DNA from: Micromonospora sp. WMMD980
GTDB lineage: Bacteria > Actinomycetota > Actinomycetes > Mycobacteriales > Micromonosporaceae
Direction: 5' to 3'
NCBI RefSeq assembly: GCF_029626035.1
Contig: NZ_JARUBE010000003.1
Coordinates: forward strand, 2,356,001-2,420,000
DNA length: 64,000 bases
A program made the translations under genes and the position numbers. Of the stretch, positions 4,123 through 10,903 are shown one piece after another (the first letter of the stretch is position 1; every line of letters begins with the position of its first letter). The notes under the pieces were generated by a model. It had not been told where the DNA came from and searched no databases. It saw only the letters and a program-made list of their open reading frames with translations.

Positions 4123-5001
4123 GTGTCCATCGTCGAGGACATCGGCGCGCAGGTCCGCGCCGCCGCCGAGGAGCTGCCGCTGGCGCAGCTCGCCGCCGCG
4201 CTGGAGAAGCTCGGCCAGGCCGAGGAACGACTGCGCTGGGTGCGCCAGGAGTCGGCCGATCCGATGGGCGTGCCGGAGCTGACCTCGGCGACCGAGCACG
4301 CCGAGACCGCCGGCTACGCGCTGCGGGTGGCGCAGGAGCAGCTCACCGCGTACCTGGCCGCGATCGGGCTGGCCGCCGACGGCGCGCCCACCGCCCCACC
4401 GGGCGAGCGCCGGCCGCGGCACGACGCGCCGCGTGGCGCCGAGCCGCCCGCGCCGGGCCCGGCCGCCGAGCCGGACGAGCCGCCCGCGGTGCGGCGCTGG
4501 TGGGCGGTCCGGGTAGCGGAGCTGACCGGCGGGCGGGAGGGCGCGCCGGACCAGCCGGACGAGCGGGTCACGGACTCCCGCGAGCTGCTGCGCCGGGTGG
4601 TGGTCGGGATCCGCTCCGGCGACCGGGACCGGCTGCACGCCGAGCTGCGCCGGGCCCACGCCGACGTCGGGCTGGGGATGGCCGCGATCGCCCCGCCGAT
4701 GCTGCGCGACCTGGCCGGTGAGCTGCTCGGCCATCCACCCCGCGCGGACGACCTGACCCGACTGCGCCGCGAGCTGGACGGACGGGTCCGCGACCTGCTG
4801 CCCGGGTTGCCGGCGCCGGTGCTGGACACGCTGCTCACCCGGGTCTGCCGGATGCCCCCGCCGCGCCGCGACGACGGGCCGGAGCAGCCGCACGCCGCCG
4901 ACCCGGCGGTCACCGCCGGGGTGCTCGCCGGCGTGCTGCTCGACCGGCTCGGCCGGGACCTGCCGAAGGACACCGAGGAACGGGAGCCGTCGCGTGGCTG
5001 A
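4123..5001 (+). CDS. Hypothetical protein of the FtsK cassette, 292 aa
   Basis: Unrecognised family. Residues 1-85 are helical and resemble the preceding small protein in composition (LAQLAAALEKLGQAEERL). Residues about 90-125 are a proline- and acid-rich linker. The rest (about 130-285) is a helical domain with no membrane segment. GTG 4123 follows the previous stop by 10 nt with GAGGGG upstream. Its end overlaps the start of the FtsK-like gene by 8 nt (GTGGCTGA), so the two are co-translated. Likely an adaptor between the ATPase and the small protein, by context only. Confidence 0.68.
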   Translation: MSIVEDIGAQVRAAAEELPLAQLAAALEKLGQAEERLRWVRQESADPMGVPELTSATEHAETAGYALRVAQEQLTAYLAAIGLAADGAPTAPPGERRPRHDAPRGAEPPAPGPAAEPDEPPAVRRWWAVRVAELTGGREGAPDQPDERVTDSRELLRRVVVGIRSGDRDRLHAELRRAHADVGLGMAAIAPPMLRDLAGELLGHPPRADDLTRLRRELDGRVRDLLPGLPAPVLDTLLTRVCRMPPPRRDDGPEQPHAADPAVTAGVLAGVLLDRLGRDLPKDTEEREPSRG

Positions 5002-7666
5002 CGTCCGCGCCCAACTGGTCACGCGTGTGCGGGGGATGCTCTCCGAGGCGCTGGGGGCCACCCGTACCCGACTGGCCGCCGCCGACGCCGAGCTGGTCGC
5101 CGGCCGGGAGCGGCTGGACCGCACCCGCCGCGCCGCCGCGGCGGTGCCGGCCCGGGTCGGCGCGGCGCGCGACCGGCGGCTCGCCGAGATCGACGCCCGA
5201 CACACCGCCCGCCTCGCCGAGCTGGCGCGGCGGGCCGCGGACGCGGCGCGGCGGGAGGCGCCGGGCGCGGCGTCCGAGCCCTGGGACCGCTGGCAGGCGA
5301 CGCCCGCCGGTCGGGCCGAGCCACCGGGCGCGGTCCGGATCGGCACGGTACGCATCGCCGGCGCCGAACCGGTGCCGGCGCTGGTGCCGCTCCTCGACGC
5401 CGGGCACGCGCACCTGGCCGGCGGCGACCGGGACGGCCTGGCCTCGGTGGTGCCCGCGCTGCTGCTGCGCTCGGTCGGGCGGGCCGACCCGGGCGCGGTG
5501 CGGGTGTACGGCTACGACCCGGAGCACCTGGGCGGCGGGCTGGCCGGATTCGCGCCGCTCGGCACCGCCGGCCTGCTCACCTTCGTCGGCCCGGGCGGCC
5601 TGGGCCGGCTGCTCGACGACCTGGTGGAGCAGATCCGCCGGATCAACGCCACGGTGCTGGCCGGCGAGTACGCGTCGCTGCGCGAGCTGGCCGCCGCGAC
5701 CGGGCGCCGGCCCGAGCCGTGGCGGGTCGCGGTGCTGCTCGGCGGCGACGAGCTGTCCCGGCACGAACGCGGCCAGCTCGACCGGGTGGTCCGCACCGGT
5801 GCGGCCTGCGGCGTGCACCTGGTGGTCCGCGGCATCGACCTGCCCGACGACCGGACCGTCACCCGGATCGTGGTCGAGGAGGACGACGCCCGGATCGCCG
5901 GGCTGCCGGTGGTGCTCGACGACCCGCCGCCGGCGGCCCTGGTCACCGAGACCTGCCGCGCGGTCGCCTCCCGGGTGGCCGCCGGGCCGCCGCCGACGCC
6001 CTTCACCGACCTGCTCCCCCCGCCCGACGAGTACTGGCGGGAGGACTCGGCGCACGGCCTCAGCGCCCCGATCGGCGAGGGCCCACACGGGCGGCCGGTG
6101 CTGCTCACGCTCGGCGACTACCCGCCGCACGCGTTGATCGGCGGCCCGTCCGGCACCGGCAAGACCAACCTCATCTTCGCCTGGATCGGCGCGCTCGCCG
6201 CCCGCTACTCCCCCGCCGAGCTGGAGTTCTATCTGCTCGACTTCAAGGAGGGGGTGTCCTTCGCCCGGTTCGCCAAGGGTCGGCGCGACCCGAGCTGGCT
6301 GCCGCACATGCGCCTGGTCGGGATCAACGTCAACACCGACCGCGAGTTCGGCCTGGCCCTGCTGAGGTTCCTCGCCGAGGAGCTGCGCCGGCGGGCCGAC
6401 GCGGCGAAGAAGCACGAGGTCACCAAGCTGGCCGAGCTGCGCGCGGTGGACCCGGCCGGGCACTGGCCGCGCATCGTCGCGGTGGTCGACGAGTTCCAGG
6501 CGCTGCTCGCCGGCCGGGACGTGGTCGCCCGGGAGGCCGCCGACCTGCTGGAGGACCTGGCCCGCCGGGGCCGTTCGCAGGGCATCCACCTGGTGCTCGC
6601 CTCCCAGGACGTGCGCGGCATCGAGGCCCTGTGGGGCCGGCCCGCCCTGGTCGCCCAGTTCACCCTGCGGATCGCGCTGCCCAAGGCGCTGCGCATCCTG
6701 GCCGAACGCAACGACGCCGCGCAGTCGCTGCCGCGCCACCACGCCGTGGTCAACGCCGAGTCCGGTCTGGCCGAGGGGAACGAGGTGGCTCGCATCCCGT
6801 CGGCCAGCGACTGGGAGACCTGGAGCGAGTTGCAGCACCGGCTGTGGCGGATGCGGCCGCAGGACGCCGCGCCGGCCCGGCTCTTCGACGGCGACGCGAT
6901 CCCCCGGCTGGCCGACGCGCCGGACTTCCGCGCCCTGACCGCCCCCGAGCAGGGTGTGCCGCGCAACCCGGTGGCCCTGCTCGGCGAGATCATCGACGTG
7001 CAGTCCCGCTCCGCGTCGATGCGGCTGCCCCGGGCGCCCGGGCGGAATCTGGCGGTGCTGGGCACCCGGGTGGACGAGGCGTGCGCGGTGCTCGACGCCG
7101 CCGCCCGCTCGCTGGCCCGCCAGTACGCCCCGGGCGCCGCCCGGTTCTCCATCGCCTGTCTCGACCCGGACGCCGACCCCGCGGCCCGCGCGCTCTACGA
7201 GGACCTGCCCGGTGACGCCTCCTGGTACGACGAGGAGACGGTGCCCGAGCTGATGGCCGAGGTGGGCGACGGGCTGGCCGCGCCGGGCACCCCGCGTACG
7301 CCGCACTTCCTGCTGCTCTACGCGGTGGACGCGGCGGCCGGCGCGCTGACCGGCAAGGCGGGCACCCGCACCGGGTTGGAGCAGTTGCGCCGGATCCTGC
7401 ACGACGGGCCGGAGCGGCGCACACACGTGCTGGCCTGGTGGCGGGGGGTGGCCCGGATGCGGGCCGACCTCGGTGGGGCCGGCGCCCGCACGGATCAGAT
7501 CGGGGCCTGGGTGGCGCTCGACGTGCAGGGCGGTGAGCTGAGCGCGTCGCTCTACCCGGGCAGCGGCGGGCCGGACTGGTATCCCCGGCCGTGGCGCGGT
7601 CTCTACTTCGACCGCGCGGTGCACCGCACCGGCCAGGTGATCATCCCTTATGGTCCGTCCCGATGA
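4994..7666 (+). CDS. FtsK/SpoIIIE-type ATPase with three tandem modules
   Basis: An 890-residue protein. Residues 1-90 are a long coiled coil. The middle module has Walker A GGPSGTGKT (383-391), LLDFKEG, and Walker B VAVVDEF (about 496-501) followed by a GRSQGIHLVLASQ sensor region, all typical of FtsK/SpoIIIE/EccC motors. By my reading, residues 110-330 (HLAGGD in the P-loop position, then RVAVLLGGDEL) and residues about 665-880 (NLAVLGTR in the P-loop position) are degenerate copies of the same fold, giving inactive-active-inactive. EccC proteins of type VII secretion also carry three modules, but the classical active one is the first. No transmembrane segment is visible. The stop overlaps the next start (ATGA). 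Confidence 0.85.
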   Translation: MADVRAQLVTRVRGMLSEALGATRTRLAAADAELVAGRERLDRTRRAAAAVPARVGAARDRRLAEIDARHTARLAELARRAADAARREAPGAASEPWDRWQATPAGRAEPPGAVRIGTVRIAGAEPVPALVPLLDAGHAHLAGGDRDGLASVVPALLLRSVGRADPGAVRVYGYDPEHLGGGLAGFAPLGTAGLLTFVGPGGLGRLLDDLVEQIRRINATVLAGEYASLRELAAATGRRPEPWRVAVLLGGDELSRHERGQLDRVVRTGAACGVHLVVRGIDLPDDRTVTRIVVEEDDARIAGLPVVLDDPPPAALVTETCRAVASRVAAGPPPTPFTDLLPPPDEYWREDSAHGLSAPIGEGPHGRPVLLTLGDYPPHALIGGPSGTGKTNLIFAWIGALAARYSPAELEFYLLDFKEGVSFARFAKGRRDPSWLPHMRLVGINVNTDREFGLALLRFLAEELRRRADAAKKHEVTKLAELRAVDPAGHWPRIVAVVDEFQALLAGRDVVAREAADLLEDLARRGRSQGIHLVLASQDVRGIEALWGRPALVAQFTLRIALPKALRILAERNDAAQSLPRHHAVVNAESGLAEGNEVARIPSASDWETWSELQHRLWRMRPQDAAPARLFDGDAIPRLADAPDFRALTAPEQGVPRNPVALLGEIIDVQSRSASMRLPRAPGRNLAVLGTRVDEACAVLDAAARSLARQYAPGAARFSIACLDPDADPAARALYEDLPGDASWYDEETVPELMAEVGDGLAAPGTPRTPHFLLLYAVDAAAGALTGKAGTRTGLEQLRRILHDGPERRTHVLAWWRGVARMRADLGGAGARTDQIGAWVALDVQGGELSASLYPGSGGPDWYPRPWRGLYFDRAVHRTGQVIIPYGPSR

Positions 7667-8334
7667 ACGAACCGGTCTCCAGTGAGACGTACCACGTCCA
7701 GATCCGCCGCCTCGCCGAGCTGACCGCCCGGGTGTCCGCGCAGCGGTCCGAGGCGCACACCTGGCACGCCCAGCAGGTGGCCGCCGCCGAGCGGGCCGTG
7801 GCCGAGGCGGCCGAGCAGGTACGACGCGCCGAGGCGGAGGTGGGCGAGGCGCAGCGGATGGTGGAGCGGGTGGACGGCGAGGTCACCCACCTGTGGGCGC
7901 AGCTGCGGGCCCGGCTCGGCGGCGGCCCCCGACGCCTCGGCGACCCGCCGGGCCCGGTGCGCGGCGCCGCGGGCGACCCGGTGCCGTTGCTGCACGGGGT
8001 ACGCGAGCTGCTGGAGCGCACCGGGCAGCCGGGCGAGCTCCCCGGCTCGGTGAACCCGCTGCTGGTCGCGTGCGGGGTGGGCGGCGCACTGGTGGCGTAT
8101 CTGCTGGGGATCGGCGCGCGGGCGTTGGGGACCGGCTCGGGCGGCGACCTGGCGGTCGGCCTGCCGGTGCTGGCGCTGGTGATCACGCTGCTCGGGCCGC
8201 TGGTCGGGTTGGCGCCGGCCCGGCTGCTGGCCGATCGTCGGCACGCGGTGCTGACCCCGCGCCCGATGATCCTGGTGGCGGCCAGCGGCCTGGCGACGAC
8301 CCTGCTCCTGCTGGCGGTCACCTACACCCGCTGA
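7663..8334 (+). CDS. Coiled-coil membrane protein of the FtsK cassette
   Basis: A 223-residue protein. Residues 1-85 form a coiled coil rich in A, E, R and Q. A glycine/proline linker follows, then three hydrophobic stretches near 130-150, 160-182 and 200-220 that look like membrane spans. ATG 7663 overlaps the stop of the ATPase gene as ATGA. As the only membrane protein in the cassette it could anchor the soluble ATPase at the membrane. No family recognised. A bidirectional hairpin follows. Confidence 0.75.
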   Translation: MNEPVSSETYHVQIRRLAELTARVSAQRSEAHTWHAQQVAAAERAVAEAAEQVRRAEAEVGEAQRMVERVDGEVTHLWAQLRARLGGGPRRLGDPPGPVRGAAGDPVPLLHGVRELLERTGQPGELPGSVNPLLVACGVGGALVAYLLGIGARALGTGSGGDLAVGLPVLALVITLLGPLVGLAPARLLADRRHAVLTPRPMILVAASGLATTLLLLAVTYTR

Positions 8335-8387: not shown

Positions 8388-9662
8388 TCAGGCAGGGACC
8401 AACACCGCTTCCTTGAGCAGGCGGCGGGCGAGGACCAGGCGGTCGGCGTCGTCGAGGCCGGGCAGGTCGCCGACCCGGGTCGGCTCGCCGGTGAGCAGCG
8501 CGCGCAGCGCCGGCTCGCAGGTGCCGGGCAGGGTGAGCGTGCGGTCGACCAGGCGCAGCGCGACGCGGCCGTCGCCGGTCGGGGCGAGCTGCCGGCGCAG
8601 GCCGGCGCGCAGCACCACCCGGCTGTCCGGGTCGAGCCGGGCCAGCGCCTCGGCCTGGGCGAGCGGGCGGATCGGCGCCGGTCGGGCGGCCGGCCACACC
8701 CGGCCCCGCAGCCGCGCGGCGACCGCCGCCGGGTCGGCCCGCAGCAGCCAGTCGCGCAGCGCCTCGACGGTCTCGGTCAGCTCCGGCTCGATCGCCTCCG
8801 GGTCGGCCAGGTCCAGGCCGAACGGCAGGCCGGCGCGCAGCCGGGCGTCCTCGGCGGCGAGCGCCGCCAACTCCTCCACCAGGGCGTAGCGGGTGAGCGC
8901 CCGGATGCCCACGGTCAGGTGCAGCGAGCTGGACTCCTGCGCTTGGGCGCTGTGCAGCCAGCCGCGCGGCAGGTAGAGCGCGTCGCCCGGTTCGAGCACC
9001 ACGTCCAGCGCGGGCCGGCCCTCGGCGGTCGCGGAGACCTCGTCGGCCCGGCCGCCCCACGGCTGGCGCTCCAGCGGGTCGGCGAGCACCGGCGGGTGGA
9101 TCCGCCAGCGCTTGCGGCCGTCGACCTGGAGCACGAACACGTCGTGGGTGTCGTAGTGGGTGGCGAAGCCCTGACTGCCGGCCGGCGTCAGGTAGGCGTT
9201 GACCTGCAACGGCTGGGCCAGCGCCGCGCCCAGGTCGCGGGCCAGGTCGACGAGCGCCGGCCAGGTGCGGTGCAGGCCCTGCAACACCAGGGTGGCGCCG
9301 TCGGCGTAGAGCGCCAGGACCTTCTCGTCGAGCACCTGGTCGCCGATCTCGGCGCCGGCGCCACCGCCGCCGGTGTAGCGCGCCGCCGGCACGAGCTGGC
9401 CGTCCTTGGCCACCCGCAGGAACGGGGTACGCAGGCCGCGTCGGCTGAGCAGCTCGTCGGCGTCGGCGGGGCTGAGCAGGTCGGTGAAGCCGTGCGGGTT
9501 GGGCAGTTCGGCGGCCCGGGACAGCAGCGGGCTGCGCCCCCAGTGGTCGGCGGCGAACTTGGCCGGCTCGACGGCCACGCACCGGGCCAGCGCCGCGGCG
9601 GCGGGGGACGACACCGCCGGGTGGCCGTGGCCACCCGGCGGGTCGACGTGCGTCGTGCTCAT
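8388..9662 (-). CDS. JmjC/cupin protein, ribosomal-oxygenase-like 2-oxoglutarate/Fe(II) hydroxylase
   Basis: A 424-residue protein of the Cupin_4/ROX group (YcfD, NO66, MINA53), iron and 2-oxoglutarate oxygenases that hydroxylate arginine or histidine side chains of ribosomal proteins. The JmjC core is intact: H169-Y-D171 within ATHYDTHDVFVLQ, then DGRKRW, and the distal ligand H237 in LPRGWLHSA. A C-terminal helical/winged region (about 260-424) follows, as in ROX proteins. The start lies only 3 nt after the stop of the four-repeat peptide gene upstream and has no good ribosome site of its own, implying coupling. The neighbouring repeat protein has one histidine per repeat, so a dedicated substrate is plausible. 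That link is inference. Confidence 0.9.
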   Translation of the reverse strand: MSTTHVDPPGGHGHPAVSSPAAAALARCVAVEPAKFAADHWGRSPLLSRAAELPNPHGFTDLLSPADADELLSRRGLRTPFLRVAKDGQLVPAARYTGGGGAGAEIGDQVLDEKVLALYADGATLVLQGLHRTWPALVDLARDLGAALAQPLQVNAYLTPAGSQGFATHYDTHDVFVLQVDGRKRWRIHPPVLADPLERQPWGGRADEVSATAEGRPALDVVLEPGDALYLPRGWLHSAQAQESSSLHLTVGIRALTRYALVEELAALAAEDARLRAGLPFGLDLADPEAIEPELTETVEALRDWLLRADPAAVAARLRGRVWPAARPAPIRPLAQAEALARLDPDSRVVLRAGLRRQLAPTGDGRVALRLVDRTLTLPGTCEPALRALLTGEPTRVGDLPGLDDADRLVLARRLLKEAVLVPA

Positions 9663-9665
9663 GTG

Positions 9666-9968
9666 TCAGGCGCTGCCGTCGGCGCCGCCGTCGTGCTGGC
9701 CCGGGGTCGCGCCACCGTCGGCCGGGCCCTCCGCGCCACCGTCCGCGCCACCGTCGTGCTGACCCGGGGTCGCGCCACCGTCGGCCGGACCCTCCGCGCC
9801 ACCGTCCGCGCCACCGTCGTGCTGACCCGGGGTCGCGCCACCGTCGGCCGGACCCTCCGCGCCACCGTCCGCGCCACCGTCGTGCTGACCGGGGGTGGCA
9901 CCGCCGTCGGCCGGGCCCTCCAGGCCGCCGCCACCGTTGGTCTGGATGTCGTCGTCGTTCAATGCCAT
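9666..9968 (-). CDS. Four-repeat peptide, candidate modified-peptide precursor or substrate of the JmjC enzyme
   Basis: A 100-residue protein. Residues 1-16 (MALNDDDIQTNGGGGL) precede four tandem 21-residue repeats (17-100) with core GATPGQHDGGADG. They are essentially identical except for the last (GSA instead of GGA). The repeats contain only A, D, E, G, H, P, Q and T, with one His and three Asp each and no hydrophobic core, so the protein is probably disordered. GGGAG lies about 7 nt before ATG 9968. It is followed after 3 nt by the JmjC gene and preceded by a GTTA-N16-GGGTAC promoter candidate. A leader plus repeated cores next to a tailoring oxygenase is the layout of a multicore RiPP. 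A stress-induced acidic disordered protein is the alternative. Confidence 0.75.
   Translation of the reverse strand: MALNDDDIQTNGGGGLEGPADGGATPGQHDGGADGGAEGPADGGATPGQHDGGADGGAEGPADGGATPGQHDGGADGGAEGPADGGATPGQHDGGADGSA
9669..9920 (-). repeat. Four 63-bp tandem repeats inside the peptide gene
   Basis: The marker GTCGTGCTG recurs on the plus strand at 9690, 9753, 9816 and 9879, an exact 63-nt period. The unit is in frame (21 codons) and the copies differ at only a few bases, pointing to recent amplification or gene conversion. This is coding, not a CRISPR: there are no spacers. Confidence 0.95.
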
Positions 9969-10024
9969 GGGTGCTCCCTCGGTGTGCCGCCCCGCGTGTT
10001 CCCGGGGTCCGTCTTCAGCGGGGG

Positions 10025-10050
10025 GTACCCCACGCCCGATCTTCTCTAAC
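10025..10050 (-). promoter_or_regulatory. SigB/SigF-type promoter candidate for the repeat-peptide/JmjC operon
   Basis: On the minus strand GTTA (10050-10047), 16 nt, GGGTAC (10030-10025). The -10 matches the Streptomyces SigB form exactly. The predicted start near 10018 leaves a leader of about 50 nt before ATG 9968. Confidence 0.5.
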
Positions 10051-10159: not shown

Positions 10160-10903
10160 GTGGCGCAGCCGGAACCGCTCACGCCGCTGACCGAGGACTG
10201 GCACCGGGCGCTGGCCGTGGTGGCCCACCCGGACGACCTGGAGTTCGGCGCCGCCGCCGCGGTGGCCCGCTGGACCCGGCAGGGCAAGGAGGTCGTCTAC
10301 TGCCTGCTGACCAGTGGTGAGGCGGGGATCGACGGAATGCCGCCGGAGCGCAGCCGGGTGCTGCGCGAGGAGGAACAGCGCGCGTCCGCCGCCGTGGTCG
10401 GGGTGTCCGCCGTCGAATTCCTCGGCCTGCCCGACGGGCTGCTGGAGTACGGCGTGCCGCTGCGCCGGGCCATCGCCGGGGTGGTCCGCCGGCACCGGCC
10501 GGACGTGGTGCTCACGAACAACTTCCGGGAGACCTGGGACGGCGAGTACGCGCTGAACCAGGCCGACCACATCGCCTGCGGCCGGGCCACGCTGGACGCG
10601 GTCCGCGACGCCGGCAACCGGTGGATCTTCCCGGAGCAGCTCACCGGCGGCACGCAGCCGTGGTCCCGGGTGCGCGAGGTGTGGGCGGCCGGCTCACCGG
10701 CGGCCCGGCACGGGGTGGACGTGACGGACACCTTCGACGCCGGGGTGGCGTCGTTGCGGGCGCACGGCGCCTACCTGAGCGGGCTCGGCGACGGCGGCTT
10801 CGACGCCGAGGAGTTCCTGGAGGGGATGGCCCGGCCCGCCGGCACCCGGCTCGCCGTCCGCTACGGCGCCGCGTTCGAGGTGTTCCGCATCGACCTGGCC
10901 TGA
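10160..10903 (+). CDS. PIG-L family deacetylase
   Basis: A 247-residue zinc-dependent N-acetylglucosaminyl-type deacetylase of the MshB/PIG-L (LmbE) family. The signature AHPDDLEFG lies near residue 27 and the second metal/catalytic element NQADHIACG near 140. Related enzymes act in mycothiol synthesis (MshB) or on mycothiol conjugates (Mca). This one is shorter than MshB and its substrate cannot be told from sequence. GTG 10160 has AGGAGG 7 nt upstream. Divergent from the repeat-peptide operon and convergent with the DUF2267 gene. Confidence 0.85.
   Translation: MAQPEPLTPLTEDWHRALAVVAHPDDLEFGAAAAVARWTRQGKEVVYCLLTSGEAGIDGMPPERSRVLREEEQRASAAVVGVSAVEFLGLPDGLLEYGVPLRRAIAGVVRRHRPDVVLTNNFRETWDGEYALNQADHIACGRATLDAVRDAGNRWIFPEQLTGGTQPWSRVREVWAAGSPAARHGVDVTDTFDAGVASLRAHGAYLSGLGDGGFDAEEFLEGMARPAGTRLAVRYGAAFEVFRIDLA

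Follow-up and report, generated by a model that had tools for sequence, protein, structure and literature searches.

Hydroxylation of side chains in gene-encoded peptides and proteins has several descriptions against which the present locus can be set, namely a repeat-peptide gene and an adjoining JmjC oxygenase gene in a 64,000-nucleotide stretch of the Micromonospora sp. WMMD980 genome (NZ_JARUBE010000003.1, positions 2,356,001 to 2,420,000; hereafter the window). FIH is a hydroxylase of asparagine, aspartate and histidine in ankyrin repeats. In the biphenomycin system, the accessible part of the literature reports ornithine hydroxylation in the precursor peptide by the cupin-like protein PbsQ and heads the JmjC protein BipG as an ornithine hydroxylase. 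Aspartate hydroxylation in the precursors of ribosomally synthesised and post-translationally modified peptides (RiPPs) is ascribed, in the available portions of two sources, to SmaO/SmaX of a graspetide cluster and to the MNIO domain of PflD (PMC13097080, PMC12636437). The available portion of a further source describes PF08007 proteins with folds like those of RiPP recognition elements (RREs) and places bacterial homologues, at about 30% identity, in RiPP-like contexts (PMC12710340).

Judging from sequence, we favor the view, with a probability of roughly 0.66, that the locus encodes a multicore system of RiPP-like kind, its JmjC enzyme hydroxylating aspartate residues in the repeats of the peptide. 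The two genes would form one operon of a peptide-modification system, with the NO66-like JmjC enzyme recognising the acidic leader of the peptide and, with Fe(II), O2 and 2-oxoglutarate, hydroxylating side chains of the repeat units. The most likely site would be the beta carbon of Asp in A-D-G-G-A or x-D-G-G contexts, which would give up to 12 sites in the window peptide. A SigB/SigF-type sigma factor may turn the operon on under stress, and the resulting peptide, poly-acidic and hydroxylated at multiple positions, would most plausibly bind metal ions.

The peptide-enzyme pair and its distribution

Both genes lie on the reverse strand. The peptide gene (9666..9968, -) encodes 100 residues, made up of a 16-residue leader, MALNDDDIQTNGGGGL (9921..9968, -), and four 21-residue units of the form EGPADGGATPGQHDGGADG(G/S)A; Tandem Repeats Finder reports a 63-nt period in 3.9 copies with 95% matches. 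The leader carries an acidic motif, M-x-L-x-D-D-D-I/M, that recurs across the peptides and is a putative recognition element. Three nucleotides (9663-9665) separate the peptide gene from that of a 424-residue JmjC_2 (PF08007) Fe(II)/2-oxoglutarate oxygenase (8388..9662, -). The peptide gene has a ribosome-binding site, GAGGGAG (9974..9980, -), whereas inspection of the window sequence just 5' of the JmjC ATG revealed no GGAGG-like site, an arrangement that fits translational coupling. The layout is thus as a preliminary description of the locus had it, both in the composition and spacing of the peptide and in the complete JmjC gene without a ribosome site of its own.

That the repeat frame is a protein-coding one follows from its pattern of substitution. 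In 25 Micromonosporaceae four-unit peptides the pooled ratio of nonsynonymous to synonymous differences per site (pN/pS) was 0.10 (pS 0.41, pN 0.043; 300 pairs), a value helped by the fact that these peptides had been picked for four intact EGPADGGA motifs, which favours a low pN. Excluding the EGPADGGA codons raised the ratio to 0.17, and the full set of 29 peptides with 100-101 residues, taken with no motif-based picking, gave 0.20; reading the genes of the 25 in the other two frames gave 4.8 and 9.8. The codons of the conserved Asp are variously GAC and GAT. The low in-frame ratios indicate purifying selection on a protein and, together with the background windows considered below, they rule out a chance frame in GC-rich DNA. 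The peptide has no named family in Pfam or NCBIfam; a few relatives bear the database label 'BatC protein'.

Conservation of the peptide is uneven along its length. A leader of the form M-x-[LI]-[NDS]-[DEN]-[DNE]-D-[IM] starts 78/80 peptides, the remaining two being cut by contig ends. Both the number and the sequence of the units vary (mostly three or four units, with a range of 1-6 under the strict pattern), while Asp and usually the acidic leader persist. The expectation that repeat number would vary around a fixed GQHDGG core was therefore borne out for the number; the His of GQHDGG proved replaceable. Several individual peptides depart from the standard form. In Micromonospora pattaloongensis (L099) the peptide has grown to 222 residues, with a second repeat, DRGVERGADAGADVGA, inserted between standard units, and in many Micromonospora peptides (L009, L011-L013, L037-L041, L045 and others) a degenerate DRGAERG-type spacer replaces one unit. 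The peptides of L167 and L170 are nearly pure (DGGA)n runs of about 16 copies, a hint that the smallest unit may be DGGA. In other classes the cores are DGTDGD-, DADA- or DTD-like instead of DGGA, and the acidic leader is still there.

The pairing itself extends well beyond the window. P0002 had a match in 48 of the 61 genomes, a count that includes the genome of the window, and the repeat frame stood directly upstream in 109 of the 110 loci of relatives (L005-L114), the remaining one (L060) being at a contig end. Eighty named loci were retained; because L005 belongs to the window itself and the two collections share species, the window plus 79 named loci serves as the cleaner set for counts. 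In the class as a whole the enzyme profile matched 84/296 genomes; 50 matches were strong (E < 1e-100, L135-L184; three belong to the genus of the window), and a further 34 genomes had weaker matches, 20 of which were fetched. A repeat pattern flagged the upstream frame in 48 of the 50 strong loci. It missed L180 and L182, although inspection of L182 shows a leader together with a short frame rich in DGTD.

As a measure less dependent on motif, we used a composition test that asks for an Asp-rich frame ending within 300 nt upstream of the matched enzyme part and that needs 36 residues. It was positive at: (i) 75/77 testable named loci; (ii) 13/13 order-level loci (L115-L127); (iii) 47/47 class-level orthologues (L138-L184), two genomes being shared with the order set; (iv) 5/5 loci of a more distant clade (L185, L189, L192, L202, L203) and (v) 10/11 testable loci of other Actinomycetota classes. 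At the three loci scored negative (L096, L099 and L239) the peptide is present but does not pass the filter. The test was positive in just 4/738 background windows and negative in 22/22 paralogue loci, ten of which carry a different short Asp-rich peptide (see below) that, at 35 residues, would be hardly visible to it. A stricter pattern, leader plus Asp-rich tail, was found in 0/738 background windows and 0/22 paralogues as compared with 72/80 named loci, 5/5 of the distant clade and 11/12 loci of other classes, where the twelfth has too little upstream DNA. The dedicated pairing proposed in the preliminary description is upheld in that every JmjC gene seen in the orthologous clade with enough upstream DNA has an Asp-rich upstream frame, though those of L179 and L180 are not clearly repetitive; orthologues lacking a repeat neighbour were looked for and none was found in the clade, and the JmjC genes seen to lack the peptide are more distant paralogues.

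A quick tree built from 98 enzymes was divided by one branch (Shimodaira-Hasegawa-like approximate likelihood ratio support, SH-aLRT, 81) into a side of 76 rows, to which the DGGA- and DxD-type peptides were confined, and 22 rows outside it, which showed no peptide of these types. The support of 81 makes one origin likely, not proven, and given the quick search, long-branch warnings and midpoint root, we do not rely on the exact branching. Seven rows labeled as having no peptide (L123, L125, L145, L149, L155, L179 and L180; L123 and L145 are the same gene) owe that label to a narrow regular expression, and all seven pass the composition test. The spread to other genera, orders and classes rules out a local Micromonospora oddity, and its extent over several Actinomycetota classes points to a general physiological role as opposed to a rare metabolite.

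The enzyme, the candidate residue and competing explanations

The oxygenase matches PF08007 at 106.2 bits (cut-off 22), and its metal triad, H169, D171 and H237, is invariant in 56/56 aligned enzymes. Structure prediction gives the whole-chain architecture of a ribosomal oxygenase (ROX), comprising a JmjC part, a helical part and a C-terminal winged-helix part. The best structure matches were NO66, MINA53 and YcfD, with identity at most about 28% in the structure alignments. The C-terminal part has a strands-then-helices order, yet it aligns with NO66 to its end; it was not compared alone with RREs, and the lack of an RRE protein among the structure-search matches listed excludes nothing. The enzyme is thus predicted to have a complete NO66-type fold with an intact triad. 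Most relatives are named only 'cupin domain-containing protein' in databases, and a few 'histidyl-hydroxylase NO66'.

With regard to the residue that might be modified, each unit of the window peptide has a single His, as had been noted before, but this does not hold for the family, since 19/80 peptides (window + 79 named loci) have no His anywhere. Across 272 units found by pattern, position 13 was His in 145, Gln in 88, Arg in 32, Val in 4 and Ala, Thr or Ser in 1 each. As this pattern fixed part of the unit by construction, the central Asp D14 included, the units were recounted with only 'EG' fixed. Of the 275 stretches so obtained, four were out of register, and the count leaves aside the EG-less spacer units seen in many Micromonospora peptides; in the 271 in-register stretches Asp stood at position 5 in 271, at position 14 in 271 and at position 18 in 270. 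When the core was taken to run from the first Asp-rich window through the stop, earlier residues being uncounted, His-free cores made up 7/47 at class level, 4/13 at order level, 4/5 in the distant clade and 8/10 in other classes, and Asp averaged 18 to 33% of the cores. Asp is also the residue common to the different core types, and beta-hydroxylation of Asp would therefore be the simplest chemistry.

Of the explanations that compete with Asp hydroxylation in the repeats, the main one is that the enzyme is a ribosomal oxygenase of the NO66/MINA53/YcfD kind acting on a ribosomal protein, the acidic repeat peptide being independent and merely co-transcribed. The predicted ROX fold, its best matches and the NO66 name on a few relatives would all be expected in this case. 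However, a strong orthologue is present in only 50/296 genomes of the class, which is odd for a function in the ribosome, and the Asp-rich frame is tied to one enzyme clade (0/22 paralogue loci). Both the clade link and the patchy presence speak against this explanation, as does the fact that the peptide changes in sequence, yet its loss was not seen. We consider it unlikely. Another scenario, and an improbable one in our estimation, makes the peptide a partner instead of a substrate, that is, a metal-loading, inhibitory or sensor subunit that regulates the enzyme via its acidic repeats. Acidic repeats could bind Fe(II), and a ferredoxin-like third gene is common, but one would sooner expect variable unit number and a leader/core layout in a multicore substrate, and we know of no precedent for such a role.

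It could also be argued that the histidine of GQHDGG is the true target and that Asp provides just the binding context. His is indeed the commonest residue at its position, and NO66 and MINA53 are histidine hydroxylases according to their entry titles. Nevertheless, Gln or Arg occupies that position in 120/272 units, and the triad is intact in the aligned enzymes in spite of the His-free peptides and cores counted above; it is unlikely that an enzyme preserved intact next to peptides without His would need that residue. As a conserved target, which is what the preliminary description had proposed, histidine is not borne out by the residue counts, and we regard modification centered on it as very improbable. 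Finally, a tandem 63-bp repeat within a GC-rich genome might be a DNA repeat with no role as protein. The contrast in pN/pS between the coding frame (0.10-0.20) and the other two refutes this as far as sequence can, the start, leader and promoter element are conserved, and the spread is phylum-wide; the idea is hardly credible.

Several observations do weigh against Asp hydroxylation of a dedicated precursor peptide. The nearest solved relatives of the enzyme target His or Arg of ribosomal proteins, not Asp, according to their entry titles. The upstream frames of L179 and L180 are Asp-rich with no clear repeats, the conservation counts are phylogenetically dependent, and the split between the distant clade and the paralogues, though it follows the tree, was drawn after the upstream frames had been seen. 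The stricter pattern with leader was found at only 9/13 order-level and 17/47 class-level loci, because leaders are altered in several lineages: the loci missed have leaders such as MALDDDTTT or lack DDDI (the Streptomyces relative P0086 and similar loci). It therefore fails as a universal marker, missing 4/13 and 30/47 loci respectively. The peptide lacks a hydrophobic signal stretch, and neither protease nor exporter is among the seven neighbours scanned in the window, in agreement with the earlier remark that none is adjacent.

What a hydroxylated peptide of this kind would do is a more tentative matter. Its poly-acidic character and the stress-type promoter make metal binding its most plausible use, albeit a doubtful one. 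It is similarly speculative to see in these loci a phylum-wide class of multicore peptides in which acidic-leader Asp repeats (DGGA, DGTDGD, DADA) are converted to poly-beta-hydroxyaspartate by the NO66-like JmjC enzyme, with help from a sucrase/ferredoxin-like protein in most lineages, and serve as stress-induced intracellular metal (iron/calcium) buffers in Actinomycetota.

Promoter-like element and genomic surroundings

A candidate SigB/SigF-type promoter, GTTAGA-N14-GGGTA (10026..10050, -), can be read upstream of the peptide gene. A SigB-type candidate had been proposed here on the window alone, and the element at 10050-10026 gains from its recurrence: the pattern GT[TA]-N14-19-GGG[TA]A, composed after the window element had been seen, occurs within 160 nt upstream of the peptide in 70/77 loci as compared with 29/1540 base shuffles of those stretches, a test whose independence is overstated given kinship among the loci. 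Most occurrences start 53-87 nt before the peptide start, and the 7/77 loci without the pattern include four from Salinispora. Inspection by eye shows the element retained between diverged flanks in Paractinoplanes and Phytohabitans. A conserved SigB/SigF-like element of this sort suggests control by stress.

Outside the window's family, the pair is commonly joined by a third gene. A sucrase/ferredoxin-like gene (PF06999) lies close downstream on the same strand in 21/27 class loci (L138-L164) and in 18/20 larger loci (L205-L224, partly the same genomes), and a PF06999 match, its position unchecked, is present in 11/12 loci of other classes. No such gene was found in the 80 named Micromonosporaceae loci, seven of which extend no more than 500 nt past the enzyme gene, and the window's genome has no PF06999 match anywhere. 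Its name hints at a function connected with redox or iron, but the gene is dispensable in Micromonosporaceae.

A further JmjC_2 clade among the paralogues (L187, L188, L190, L194-L200) has a conserved Asp-rich peptide of its own, of ~35-40 residues, in 10/10 loci looked at. These peptides end in GGDSDGTDSSSDFI or near variants (MDPIEVEVEDLAEVTSRDITAGGDSDGTDSSSDFI type), about 160-310 nt before the matched enzyme part, and in three scanned loci a prolyl oligopeptidase gene precedes the peptide, so that the clade looks like another peptide-modification cluster. In L191 a distant JmjC_2 gene adjoins a TfuA-like protein (PF07812; L191:1358-2899, -), a typical partner in thioamide or azole peptide clusters. 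Such RiPP-like surroundings agree with the remark on bacterial PF08007 homologues in the accessible part of PMC12710340.

The seven scanned neighbours in the window are PIG-L, FtsK-like, DUF72, DksA/TraR and response regulator proteins and two with no useful match; no ATP-grasp ligase, the mark of graspetides, is among them. The window's genome yielded no further copy of the peptide, and the pair matched no PADLOC defence model. An FtsK/SpoIIIE-type ATPase and two small neighbours point toward the pair (4123-8334, +), and members of this ATPase family lie downstream of the JmjC gene in 5/6 Micromonosporaceae loci compared, the window included; the ATPase part of the protein matches the SspH/mad8 defence models over a limited stretch only. 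The divergent PIG-L family deacetylase (10160-10903, +), whose best NCBIfam match is BshB1-like and below cut-off, appears ordinary.

Comparison with known systems

The ribosomal oxygenases NO66, MINA53 and YcfD have in common with the present enzyme the Pfam family, the metal triad and the predicted full-length fold, the C-terminal part included. They differ in that identity is at most about 28%, and in that the gene here is tied to an Asp-repeat peptide and has no known ribosomal substrate. The likeness to FIH is one of mode of action, namely a JmjC enzyme hydroxylating repeated motifs within one protein. BipG and PbsQ, to the extent that the available text describes them, share with our proposal an enzyme of the 2-oxoglutarate type whose substrate is a ribosomal precursor peptide; their cluster contains MNIO, radical SAM and arginase proteins, whereas the locus here consists of two genes, one of them for a repetitive acidic peptide. 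SmaO/SmaX and PflD, again as far as the available text goes, belong to other cluster types, PflD working via its MNIO domain, and the neighbours scanned here lack an ATP-grasp protein. The accessible part of PMC12710340 describes no such peptide, repeat, clade or operon for the JmjC-RRE proteins.

The locus does have what is expected of a RiPP system, that is, a gene-encoded precursor with a conserved leader (altered in several lineages) and a variable core beside a candidate modifying enzyme. A search of the open-access literature, most subscription journals being outside it, returned no description of an Asp-repeat peptide combined with a JmjC enzyme. Each element on its own is known: RiPP clusters can contain JmjC enzymes, Asp can be hydroxylated in RiPPs, and FIH is a JmjC enzyme that hydroxylates repeats. 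Their combination in one system would be new, and this may be a new class of peptide. If our proposal is correct, it would provide a function for widespread bacterial NO66-like oxygenases and add a peptide class in which the defining enzyme is a JmjC oxygenase and the substrate an Asp repeat of variable length, and the pair could serve as an ordinary bacterial model for repeat hydroxylation of the FIH kind.
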